Source: Streptococcus sp. oral taxon 061 (GTDB taxonomy: Bacteria > Bacillota > Bacilli > Lactobacillales > Streptococcaceae). From it: a stretch of 64,000 bases of DNA. The notes under the pieces were generated by a model. That model made no database searches, was not told the DNA's origin, and saw only the letters and a program-made list of their open reading frames with translations. The stretch is from positions 1,136,001-1,200,000 of the forward strand of contig NZ_CP058258.1 in the NCBI RefSeq assembly GCF_013394695.1. The letters run 5' to 3'. The translations under genes were made by a program, and so were the position numbers. Of this stretch, positions 2,568 to 9,376 are shown one piece after another. How positions within the stretch are numbered: position 1 is the first letter of the stretch; each line of letters begins with the position of its first letter.

Positions 2568-3182
<615 letters not shown>

Positions 3183-3199
3183 CTACTTTATCGAGCTCC

Positions 3200-3222
3200 T
3201 TGCCTGCCTCACGGGACAGTTT
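3200..3222 (-). promoter_or_regulatory. PyrR-binding anti-antiterminator loop of the pyr leader
   Basis: The minus strand reads CTGTCCCGTGAGGCAGGC, which carries the UCCCGUGAGG core of known PyrR-binding loops. It lies about 70 bases upstream of the attenuator terminator. PyrR-UMP binding would stabilise this loop, block the antiterminator and allow termination at 3101-3131. Confidence 0.88.
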
Positions 3223-3245
3223 TAAAGGAATATTTTATTGTCCTT

Positions 3246-4638: not shown

Positions 4639-4968
4639 ATGGAAGACAAAGTTCTTTTAGCTGAAGCCTATCAACTCGTTTCAGAATTAAATCAAACTAT
4701 ACAAAACTGTAAACAAGGATTACCTGATGATCTACGCTTACAGCAAAATATAGATGAGATTCTCAGAGAACTTAAAAAAGCTGAGAAAGTAGACAACGCT
4801 ATCTTAATTGAACTGGAAACTTTTTACCAACGGACTAGTCTTTTGATTGGACTTGGCTCACTAAAACTAAACGATCAAGCTCGCACTGCTTGGAGAAACT
4901 ATGACAAGTTCCACTACGATCACGTTAAACATACATTGACACTTTACGGACCTGTTTTTGGTCTTTAA
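4639..4968 (+). CDS. Small helical protein, possibly bacteriocin-immunity-like
   Basis: This is a 109-residue soluble protein with a very strong ribosome site (AAAGGAGG, 9 bases before ATG). It is almost entirely predicted helix, with charged heptad-like stretches (ILRELKKAEKVDNAILIELETFY), and ends in TLYGPVFGL. Size and helical character recall enterocin-A-type immunity proteins, but I see no diagnostic motif, so this is a weak guess. It has its own promoter and stands just upstream of the ABC-F leader; a shared response to ribosome-targeting or membrane toxins is possible but unproven. Confidence 0.6.
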   Translation: MEDKVLLAEAYQLVSELNQTIQNCKQGLPDDLRLQQNIDEILRELKKAEKVDNAILIELETFYQRTSLLIGLGSLKLNDQARTAWRNYDKFHYDHVKHTLTLYGPVFGL

Positions 4969-4994
4969 TATAAAGAGGATTTTCTGGCTTAATC

Positions 4995-5023
4995 TTGACA
5001 AATTTTCGCAAAAAGAGTATGAT
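4995..5023 (+). promoter_or_regulatory. Promoter of the ABC-F leader transcript
   Basis: A perfect TTGACA (4995-5000), a 17-base spacer and TATGAT (5018-5023) form a strong promoter. Transcription would begin near 5030, about ten bases before the Shine-Dalgarno of the short leader ORF. A second perfect TTGACA at 5168-5173 has only a poor -10 (TAGATA) at 17 bases. Confidence 0.85.
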
Positions 5024-5054
5024 GATTGTAGCAATACTCGGAGGTAAGGGAGAC

Positions 5055-5066
5055 ATGAACAACTAA
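5055..5066 (+). CDS. Three-codon leader ORF (Met-Asn-Asn-stop) upstream of the ABC-F gene
   Basis: ATG AAC AAC TAA follows GGAGGT (5040-5045) with a 9-base spacer, a near-ideal initiation site. The stop codon lies 7 bases before a leader hairpin. Very short leader ORFs are known from attenuators of antibiotic-resistance ABC-F genes, where a drug-stalled ribosome changes RNA folding. A 15-codon in-frame extension upstream would start inside the -10 box, so the 3-codon version is the one the transcript can contain. Its translation is inferred. Confidence 0.6.
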   Translation: MNN

Positions 5067-5068
5067 GT

Positions 5069-5212
5069 CTATCAAATAAAGAACCTTTATTTAGTAGATC
5101 TTGTTTCTGTCTCTTTTTGTGTACTCTTTTTTGTGGTGGATTTTCAGCCTTTTTAAAAGAGGATTTTTTGACATAGACGATTGGCTCTACTAGATAAAGT
5201 AGAGCTTTTTGT
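5069..5212 (+). promoter_or_regulatory. Transcription attenuator of the ABC-F gene
   Basis: Three mutually exclusive structures can be drawn. A first hairpin pairs AAATAAAG (5074-5081) with CTTTATTT (5085-5092), with CTA/TAG extending it. The intrinsic terminator pairs GCTCTACT (5184-5191) with AGTAGAGC (5198-5205), followed by five T. TAGTAGA (5092-5098), overlapping the 3' side of the first hairpin, is fully complementary to TCTACTA (5186-5192) in the terminator's 5' arm and can act as antiterminator. A ribosome held on the leader ORF would disrupt hairpin 1 and favour antitermination. Confidence 0.75.
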
Positions 5213-5246
5213 TATGCAATATGGACATTCTAGAAAGTGCAATAAT

Positions 5247-6773
5247 ATGATAAACATCAATCATCTAACTATCACACAAAACAAAGATTTACGAGACCTT
5301 GTTTCCGATTTAAATATCACCATCCAAGACGGAGAAAAGGTCGCTATTATCGGCGAAGAAGGCAATGGAAAATCAACCTTACTTAAAACTTTAATGGGCG
5401 AAAGATTAGCTGATTTCTCAATCAGTGGAGAAATCCAGTCTGACTTTCAGTCCCTGGCCTGCATTCCCCAACATCTCCCTGAAGAACTGAAGAAAAAATC
5501 TCTACAGGACTACTTCTTTTTAGAGCCTACAGATTTGGACTACAGCATTCTTTATCGTTTGGCGGAGGAGTTGCACTTTGATAGCGACCGTTTTGCTAGT
5601 GACCAAGAAATTGGCAGTCTATCAGGGGGCGAAGCTTTGAAAATTCAGCTCATCCATGAATTGGCTAAACCCTTTGACATTCTATTTTTAGATGAACCTT
5701 CAAATGACCTAGATCTTGAGACGATTGATTGGCTAAAAGGTCAAATTCAGAAGATGAGGCAAACCGTTATTTTCATTTCTCATGATGAAGAATTCCTCTC
5801 TCGAACGGCAGATACCATTATCCACTTGCGACTAGTCAAGCACCGAAAGGAAGCTGAAACCCTAGTCGAACATCTAGACTATGATCGCTATAGTGAACAG
5901 AGAAAGGCTCATTTTGCCAGACAAAGCCAGCAAGCTGCCAACGACCAACGTTCCTATGAAAAAACCATGGAAAAGCATCGCAGAGTCAAGCAAAAAGTAG
6001 AAACTGCCTTGCGTAACACTAAAAATGATGTTGCGGGCCGCCTATTAGCTAAAAAGATGAAAAATGTTCTTTCTCAAGAAAAACGCTACGAAAAAGTAGC
6101 TCAGTCCATGACCCAAAAGCCGCTTGAAGAGGAACAAATCCAACTTTTCTTTTCAGATATAGAGCCATTAGCAGCTTCTAAAGTCTTAATTCGACTGGAA
6201 AAGAAAAATTTGTCTATTGGTGAGCGTGTTTTAGCTCAGGAGTTACAACTAACTGTCCGTGGTCAAGAAAAAATTGGTATTATCGGTCCCAATGGCATTG
6301 GCAAATCCACACTTTTAGCCAAGCTGCAGCAACTTCTTAATAATAAGCGAGAAATCTCGCTTGGATTTATGCCACAAGATTACCAAGAAACATTGCAATT
6401 GGCTCTATCGCCAGTAGAATTTCTCAGCCAAACTGGACATAAAGAGGAATTACAGAAAATCCAATCCTTCCTAGCCAGTCTCAATTTCAGTTATCCAGAG
6501 ATGCACCAGCAAATCCACTCCTTATCTGGAGGTCAACAAGGTAAACTCCTTCTTTTGAATTTAGTTCTACGAAAACCGAACTTTCTCCTTCTGGATGAAC
6601 CCACACGAAATTTTTCTCCAACTTCTCAACCAGAAATCAGAAAACTCTTTGCCACTTATCCCGGTGGTCTGGTTACTGTTTCGCATGATCGACGTTTCTT
6701 AAAAGAAGTCTGTACCAGTATTTATAGTCTGACAGAGCATGGTTTAGAAGTAGTTGATTTACAAGATCTTTAA
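5247..6773 (+). CDS. ABC-F family ATPase, antibiotic-resistance (ribosome protection) type
   Basis: There are two ATP-binding domains and no membrane segments. NBD1 has Walker A GEEGNGKST, signature LSGGE and Walker B LFLDEPSNDLD. A charged interdomain linker follows (about residues 215-270). NBD2 has GPNGIGKST, LSGGQQ and LLLDEPTRNFSP. The DEPTRNFSP form, in place of the DEPTNHLD usual in housekeeping ABC-F proteins, is typical of Lsa/Vga/VmlR-like proteins that clear drugs from the ribosome. I chose ATG 5247 (508 aa) because AGAAAG precedes it and upstream starts overlap the attenuator. The substrate cannot be read from sequence. Confidence 0.85.
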   Translation: MININHLTITQNKDLRDLVSDLNITIQDGEKVAIIGEEGNGKSTLLKTLMGERLADFSISGEIQSDFQSLACIPQHLPEELKKKSLQDYFFLEPTDLDYSILYRLAEELHFDSDRFASDQEIGSLSGGEALKIQLIHELAKPFDILFLDEPSNDLDLETIDWLKGQIQKMRQTVIFISHDEEFLSRTADTIIHLRLVKHRKEAETLVEHLDYDRYSEQRKAHFARQSQQAANDQRSYEKTMEKHRRVKQKVETALRNTKNDVAGRLLAKKMKNVLSQEKRYEKVAQSMTQKPLEEEQIQLFFSDIEPLAASKVLIRLEKKNLSIGERVLAQELQLTVRGQEKIGIIGPNGIGKSTLLAKLQQLLNNKREISLGFMPQDYQETLQLALSPVEFLSQTGHKEELQKIQSFLASLNFSYPEMHQQIHSLSGGQQGKLLLLNLVLRKPNFLLLDEPTRNFSPTSQPEIRKLFATYPGGLVTVSHDRRFLKEVCTSIYSLTEHGLEVVDLQDL

Positions 6774-9233: not shown

Positions 9234-9255
9234 ATCTTAAGCAAAGGTTTTTAAT

Positions 9256-9376
9256 GTCATCCCGTGAGGTGACGAAGACGCAGAAATATATGAAATTCTT
9301 TAAGAATGAGATAATTCTCTTTTTAAAGAAGTCTTACTCTGAGAGCCTATTGCTGTAAAATAATGGGCTCTTTTTT
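9256..9376 (+). promoter_or_regulatory. PyrR-dependent attenuator of pyrP
   Basis: GTCATCCCGTGAGGTGAC (9256-9273) is a short hairpin exposing the AUCCCGUGAGGU core recognised by PyrR. Downstream, AGAGCC (9342-9347) pairs with GGCTCT (9366-9371), followed by TTTTT, the intrinsic terminator. pyrP starts 29 bases later. High UMP should shut off uracil uptake together with the pyr operon. Confidence 0.87.

Follow-up and report, generated by a model that had tools for sequence, protein, structure and literature searches.

A catalogued pneumococcal small RNA as the likely terminated product of a ribosome-mediated attenuator upstream of a streptococcal ABC-F gene

The leader of an ABC-F gene (encoding an ATP-binding cassette protein of the F type) in Streptococcus sp. 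oral taxon 061 is, we conclude with considerable confidence, a ribosome-mediated transcription attenuator of the vmlR type. It lies in a window of 64,000 nucleotides (nt) of contig NZ_CP058258.1 (positions 1,136,001 to 1,200,000), to which all coordinates below refer, between a promoter at 4995-5023 and the gene at 5247-6773, all on the forward strand. The transcript of this leader has been catalogued as a small RNA (sRNA) under the names SpF43, F43 and srf-19; judged from its sequence, it is most likely a drug-responsive switch. As far as the literature could be searched, what is new is the identification of SpF43/srf-19 as a switch, its genus-wide spread and its co-variation. The three-codon upstream open reading frame (uORF) is in itself not unusual, since that of vmlR reads Met-Ile-Asn (MIN).

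The promoter, ribosome-binding site, uORF and terminator claimed by the original prediction are all found in the sequence where it had placed them. The sigma-70-type promoter is made of a -35 box TTGACA (4995-5000), a 17-nt spacer and a -10 box TATGAT (5018-5023); it matches the consensus at 11 of 12 positions and both boxes are alike in aligned relatives. By count alone, promoter-like sites are at chance level (3 found, 2.4 expected), and a second one at 5222-5251 was dropped as such. The Shine-Dalgarno (SD) sequence GGAGGT (5040-5045) is followed by the uORF ATG-AAC-AAC-TAA (ATGAACAACTAA, 5055-5066), encoding Met-Asn-Asn-stop (MNN), and both are conserved in relatives. The first hairpin of the prediction exists, but it is larger than claimed: this putative anti-antiterminator, SL-1, spans 5040-5127 (-27.9 kcal/mol, z -3.43), with inner arms 5067-5081 and 5085-5099 and outer arms that bury the SD and the start of the uORF. 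An intrinsic terminator occupies 5183-5210, its hairpin (5183-5206; 9-bp stem, 6-nt loop) being followed by a U-tract; terminator-like sites are above expectation (2 found, 0.3 expected). The complementarity predicted between TAGTAGA (5092-5098) and TCTACTA (5186-5192) holds and extends to 14 contiguous pairs, one of them G-U, between the 3' arm of SL-1 (5085-5098) and the 5' arm and loop of the terminator (5186-5199). This antiterminator is mutually exclusive with SL-1, and likewise with the terminator. The leader (5030-5215) folds with a z of -3.83 and the antiterminator stretch (5083-5200) with one of -3.92, levels equalled by none of 200 shuffles in either case.

Folding calculations on the leader yield a switch. 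The free RNA adopts the state with SL-1 and terminator, forming all 9 terminator pairs and none of the 14 antiterminator pairs, at -52.8 kcal/mol against -37.5 when the antiterminator is forced. Masking the RNA through 5070 or further reverses the outcome completely (0/9 terminator and 14/14 antiterminator pairs), and the terminator persists when masking stops at 5066. In silico, a ribosome stopped on the uORF would release the antiterminator. Relative to the A of the uORF at 5055, position 5070 is +15; in the vmlR leader, the 30S toeprint is found at +16 (PMC9226507; here and below, published reports are cited from excerpts). A ribosome with the AUG in its P site would reach about +15/+16, that is 5070/5071, and arrest at the start codon would therefore just suffice to flip the RNA.

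The mechanism that we infer involves translation of the uORF, stalling by a drug, read-through and protection by the ABC-F product. Without stress, a ribosome would load on GGAGGT during synthesis of the leader, read Met-Asn-Asn, terminate and depart; SL-1 would then close and occupy its own 3' arm, the terminator would form, and RNA polymerase would stop at about 5210, leaving the short transcript known as SpF43/srf-19. A drug that blocks the peptidyl-transferase centre would instead arrest the ribosome within the first uORF codons, covering the RNA to about 5070 or beyond. With SL-1 blocked, 5085-5098 would pair with 5186-5199 as soon as the latter emerged, pre-empting the terminator and allowing read-through into the ABC-F gene, whose product would be expected to rescue drug-stalled ribosomes. 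The inducing drugs would most likely be pleuromutilins, lincosamides and streptogramin A.

The short transcript has a history of its own. Rfam family RF02436 (SpF43_sRNA) matches the first 99 nt of the leader (5030-5128) with 113.9 bits, for a cut-off of 70, and ends at SL-1, so that the terminator and the antiterminator partner fall outside the family. The F43 of Mann et al. has 99 nt, lies on the same strand in the interval from SP1281 to SP1282 and bears the entry 'Northern' (PMC3395615). Slager et al. annotate srf-19 in D39V at 1170746-1170923 as 'ncRNA of unknown function' and add in a footnote 'alternative terminator present' (PMC6212727). Residue H431 of SPD_1137, given in the same report, fits a protein of 519 amino acids (aa) starting at 5214; because it fixes the SPD_1137 start there, srf-19 can be placed at about 5033-5210, assuming no indels, which runs from the promoter to the U-tract. 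The published end of srf-19 in S. pneumoniae D39 coincides, by this transfer, with our terminator, and the uORF would correspond to about 1170768-1170779 of D39V. Together with the Rfam match this gives an attenuated leader transcript of about 178-181 nt (5030-5210), its exact start site being deduced. Later reports call srf-19 a sRNA located in the 5' untranslated region of SPV_1137 (PMC9812572), 'potentially an RNA switch' (PMC6560143) and, in a 2025 survey that lists it in 385 strains, a putative sRNA (PMC12323649). The novelty of the sensor, asserted by the original prediction, must be qualified accordingly: the transcript itself was known, but in the open-access listings and excerpts searched we found no link of SpF43/srf-19 to a uORF, to ribosome-mediated attenuation or to drug sensing.

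Could the RNA be what its annotation says, a trans-acting sRNA that is independent of the downstream gene? This is how Rfam and three pneumococcal surveys present it, with the 'Northern' entry for F43 and the 385 strains of the 2025 survey in its favour. Its distribution tells otherwise. Of 284 Streptococcus genomes, 142 contain a pattern made of the SD and the uORF when up to 3 mismatches are allowed, and a reversed-pattern control is matched in 2. The match in G145 is due to chance, being remote from the ABC-F gene of that genome, and diverged leaders escape the pattern, as in nine examined at ~65% identity (L049-L057) that carry MNN with another spacing. An ABC-F match at 1e-60 is present in 251 of the 284 genomes. 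Among the other 33, 20 were checked and the pattern appeared in one, directly ahead of an ABC-F gene split over two frames. Conversely, 36 of the 46 pattern-bearing genomes among G001-G099 have a listed ABC-F position, and in all 36 the pattern lies 189-432 nt upstream of the gene on the same strand. This linkage, and its near absence where the gene is not matched, tie SpF43 to the ABC-F gene. In addition, the 3' arm of SL-1, which is the 5' arm of the antiterminator (arm 2), co-varies, as described below, with a terminator that lies outside the Rfam family, and the F43 deletion mutant, which was made, is absent from the eight attenuated mutants in the excerpted report (PMC3395615). We therefore regard a purely trans-acting sRNA as very unlikely; SpF43/srf-19 may nevertheless have an additional role in trans beside the one in cis.

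Conservation of the uORF was studied upstream of ABC-F orthologs in 93 regions (that of the window, those of 42 named loci, and 20 plus 30 from further genomes), among which protein identity to the ABC-F of the window falls to ~40%. Two pairs of regions are identical over their last 250 nt, and the 93 loci are thus not all independent. A script recovered an SD-led ORF of at most 10 codons together with a terminator at 89 of the 93 loci, as a raw count; the other four have short or cut leaders (L032, L072), Met-Asp-Asn-Lys-Lys by eye (L069) or a longer ORF only (L084). The encoded peptide is MNN at 70 of the 89 loci, MKN at 7, MYKKSIA at 4 and MRN at 2, with MDNNK, MDSNK, MIH, MYI, MIN and MDN found once each. 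Eight loci offered more than one candidate (L029, L035, L058-L060, L076, L078, L085), the other 81 a single one; where there were several, preference went to ORFs that begin with ATG and end in one of a set of chosen codons, mainly for Asn, and at L058-L060 to ATGAACAACTAA outright. When leaders are grouped into 22 clusters that are less than 80% identical, 18 have M-x-N-stop (MNN 12, MKN 3, MRN 2, MIN 1) and 4 have other peptides. In the window, L001-L042 and L048, the gap between uORF and terminator measures 111-117 or 202-219 nt (264 and 309 in two cases), the difference being an insertion between SL-1 and terminator (L003, L010, L011, L019 and others) that leaves the parts of the switch intact. 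L097 belongs to a broken ABC-F gene and its terminator call is doubtful.

Beyond the genus, an even draw of 295 genomes across the order, streptococci included, gave an ABC-F match at 1e-80 in 69 of them, from 15 of 74 genera. We inspected by eye 19 leaders of orthologs (41-48% identity) from genera other than Streptococcus, and in 10 of them a purine-rich stretch is followed by a short ORF, which reads Met-Tyr-Thr-Ile in L118, L119, L120, L122 and L123, Met-Ile-Lys-Phe in L121, Met-Leu-Thr-Ile in L125, Met-Lys-Val-Asn in L128, and Met-Arg-Ile in L130 and L137. The other nine have longer, TTG-started or uncertain ORFs, or no such ORF.

The two tandem Asn codons of so short a uORF invite the idea that the same RNA logic answers to another signal, a shortage of asparagine, as in trp-type attenuators, and the masking logic indeed holds for a ribosome stopped at any codon of the uORF. 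However, codon 2 is variable (N, K, I, D, R, Y), 4 of the 22 clusters have either a longer ORF or a third codon other than Asn, and the gene is an ABC-F and no amino-acid gene. Moreover, vmlR-type uORFs of equal length are drug-responsive (PMC9226507). We consider asparagine sensing extremely unlikely.

Co-variation of the two alternative pairings was assessed without alignment, by exchanging arms between the 22 leader clusters in 20,000 permutations. For the arms of SL-1, no permutation reaches the pairing of the true partners (0/20000, with 22 or 17 clusters), the mean pairing energy being -24.5 kcal/mol for own arms versus -18.0 for crossed ones. For the arms of the antiterminator, with arm 2 sought within +65, 6 of 20,000 permutations do so in the 22 clusters, and 43 when arm 2 is sought over the whole span from uORF to terminator. 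None does in a set of 17 clusters that leaves out L097, L071, L074, L075 and L079, omissions that were chosen after the results of the leader script. The pairing is maintained with changing letters: TAGTAGA/TCTACTA in the window becomes TAGTAGT/ACTACTA in L070, GATAGA/TCTATC in L058, CAGGT/ACCTG in L085 and ATCAAGT/ACTTGAT in L086; in the same manner, the terminator stem varies between relatives and keeps its pairing. The signal is uneven among clusters. Own pairing is ordinary when compared to mononucleotide shuffles of arm 2 (at least 100 of 500 as good) in L071, L074, L075, L076, L079, L083 and L097, and the z of SL-1 is weaker than -1.5 in six of the 22 (L071, L074-L076, L079, L082). In L076 and L079 arm 2 is displaced downstream by an insertion, and the search for an antiterminator in L074 and L075 gave nothing convincing.

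Another explanation is an attenuator controlled by a ligand or a protein, in which the uORF would be incidental. We give it hardly any credence. SpF43 is the sole Rfam family above threshold in 4960-5300, with no riboswitch, T-box or protein-bound leader among the matches. The AUG has no paired base in 7 of 14 folds from the far clade (L080, L083, L086, L087, L090, L092, L097), and MNN persists in five of those leaders; the uORF is thus retained where it is unpaired, and one of its changes, AAT in L015, is synonymous. The original prediction, which read this leader as an attenuator, had named a lack of conservation of the ORF or the pairings as grounds for abandoning that view. This is not what the relatives display: across the genus the uORF and the terminator are conserved, as are the two alternative pairings, and they co-vary, in support of a ribosome-mediated attenuator.

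Several results weigh against a ribosome-mediated, drug-sensing switch. In the finished RNA of relatives, the masked leader flips completely in just 5 of 22 clusters (the window, L058, L063, L071, L087), and the masked prediction is weak for L081, L082, L095 and L097. Before the 3' arm of the terminator is made, its 5' arm pairs upstream by at least 7 pairs in 18 of the 22 masked clusters, and the same is seen in 7 of the 22 unmasked ones (L061, L063, L071, L079, L080, L081, L085). Since the flip is found in most relatives only before the 3' arm exists, timing, perhaps through a polymerase pause, should matter; and since unmasked leaders also pair upstream, kinetics or pausing must play a part. 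When run on MAFFT alignments of rows hand-picked from the 89 leaders, RNAalifold recovers 11 SL-1 pairs in the far clade (13 rows), with two-sided change in 2, and in the near clade of the window (11 rows) a pairing of the SD with arm 2, with 8 pairs and 0 two-sided changes. Because both alignments are gappy in the stems, we did not rely on them and used partner swaps. In the literature, Slager et al. count srf-19 with their 34 sRNAs rather than with their 29 RNA switches, and discrepancies led them to disregard most of the validation reports of Mann et al. (PMC6212727). The expression of srf-19 clusters with late-competence genes (PMC6560143), which a drug sensor does not predict. A study of S. 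pneumoniae D39 by ribosome profiling with retapamulin/lefamulin (PMC9426450) names, in its main text, no short ORF at this place; the ORFs listed there are of 5-43 aa, longer than Met-Asn-Asn. We found no drug-induction experiment on this ABC-F gene in the open-access listings and excerpts searched. Finally, the protein scores 303.5 bits with the general model of ribosomal-protection ABC-F proteins (NF000355), below its cut-off of 380, and among the best 25 of 193 NCBIfam families no named resistance family (Sal, Vga, Msr, CplR, producer, Lsa, OptrA, Vga(F), Car(A)) reaches its cut-off; the scores fall far short, Sal coming first among them with 204.4 bits for a cut-off of 725.

What kind of ABC-F is it, then? 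The gene (5247-6773, forward strand) encodes 508 aa, or 519 if it starts at 5214. The start at 5247 is common to relatives, and many database proteins have 519 aa, fitting the upstream ATG. It is the ortholog of SP_1282/SPD_1137, the first assignment resting on PMC3395615 and PMC4243769 and the second on residue H431. Named loci with proteins 83-92% identical come from S. infantis, S. oralis, S. mitis, S. pseudopneumoniae and similar species. The protein has two intact ABC domains and a helical linker, as befits an ABC-F; among 28 orthologs E150, E451, H179 and H480 are invariant, and both signature motifs are invariant or, for S427, nearly so. Its AlphaFold model has a predicted local distance difference test score (pLDDT) of 90.4. 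A search with the single sequence gives YheS as best solved relative. With a profile of the 28 orthologs, VmlR2 leads, VmlR and Sal(B) come next and YheS follows; in linker length, too, the protein is nearer to the first three. Fold comparison puts VmlR2 and VgaL on top, with EttA at no great distance. From its sequence, the protein may work like the resistance ABC-F proteins of the type acting against pleuromutilins, lincosamides and streptogramin A, yet it cannot be filed as one of them, because the cut-offs are missed while profile and linker favour VmlR2, VmlR and Sal(B), and EttA is near in fold. It may alternatively represent a housekeeping ABC-F subfamily. A plasmid search returned 4426 matching records, none at 60% identity or more.

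The parallel with B. subtilis vmlR that the original prediction drew is a close one. There too a three-codon uORF, Met-Ile-Asn, sits within SL-1, in a bulge, SL-1 acts as anti-antiterminator, an intrinsic terminator precedes an ABC-F gene, and the antiterminator forms upon stalling of the ribosome at the uORF (PMC9226507), as it does here in silico. Both groups include leaders that encode M-I-N and M-D-N, the former being the peptide of the streptococcal leader L082. The two systems differ in sequence and in ABC-F lineage, and induction has been measured for vmlR whereas it is predicted here; the vmlR leader further contains SL-2, a pause hairpin, and SL-4, which sequesters the SD (PMC9226507). 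Listeria lmo0919/vgaL is likewise an ABC-F gene under ribosome-mediated attenuation (PMC12421871), likened here by description only. The cplR leader of Clostridioides difficile also combines a short uORF inside a 5' hairpin with a terminator and an antiterminator (PMC10201436), and its peptide, Met-Arg-Ile, is that of the two Lactobacillales orthologs L130 and L137; in contrast to our case, its terminator also sequesters the SD of the gene, which belongs to another ABC-F family. In msrDL-msrD, stalling on the leader ORF MYLIFM prevents a terminator before an ABC-F gene as well (PMC10314930), but that ORF has six codons, the arrest is macrolide-induced and occurs at the stop codon, and the gene is part of a mobile operon. 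The genome of the window also has an msrD-like ABC-F gene (G000:C1:959156-960580, reverse strand), which scores 534.1 bits with NF000355, follows the end of an efflux-pump-like gene and has the msrDL leader MYLIFM (L136), an internal comparison with known attenuation. Finally, the SpF43_sRNA family is the same RNA as our leader, annotated there as sRNA.

Some observations concern the surroundings of the switch. Directly after SL-1, at 5113-5128, a T-rich stretch followed by GTG and a CTC-like sequence recurs genus-wide; F43, with its 99 nt, stops at this stretch and srf-19 at the terminator, and the stretch may mark a site where polymerase pauses or stops early. A pair of isolates differs by an A-to-G single-nucleotide polymorphism 61 bp upstream of SP_1282 (PMC4243769), and whether it hits the terminator depends on the start codon used. 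Upstream, a gene of 109 aa (4639-4968, forward strand) matched no Pfam or NCBIfam family, and in L020, L035 and L041 apparently only its first codons are left before the leader. We dropped the idea that the leader is a mere terminator of this upstream gene, which leaves the uORF, SL-1 and the co-variation unexplained. Elsewhere in the window, Rfam finds a PyrR binding site at 3101-3232 (reverse strand) before a pyrR-like ORF, and SpF44_sRNA at 9254-9357 (forward strand) before a permease ORF, both gene names being read from the ORFs. F44 has been identified as a PyrR-binding site (PMC12323649, 2025), and the second 'sRNA' family of the window is therefore also a cis leader.

We lean, with modest confidence, toward a broader view, in which the Rfam 'sRNA' family is the terminated form of a genus-wide drug-sensing switch, and most streptococci, together with relatives among other Lactobacillales, would carry as a core gene a so far unrecognised intrinsic ribosome-rescue ABC-F under a minimal start-codon sensor of the M-x-N type, with its geometry set so that a ribosome frozen on the AUG just flips the RNA. 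If this is true, a pneumococcal RNA known from catalogues, from a deletion mutant in a mouse study and, in 2025, once more from a list of putative sRNAs would turn out to be a cis switch for which a clear assay exists. Most streptococci would then possess an inducible chromosomal ABC-F that the resistance families tested here do not name, and the intrinsic tolerance of streptococci to ribosome-targeting drugs would become a directly testable question.
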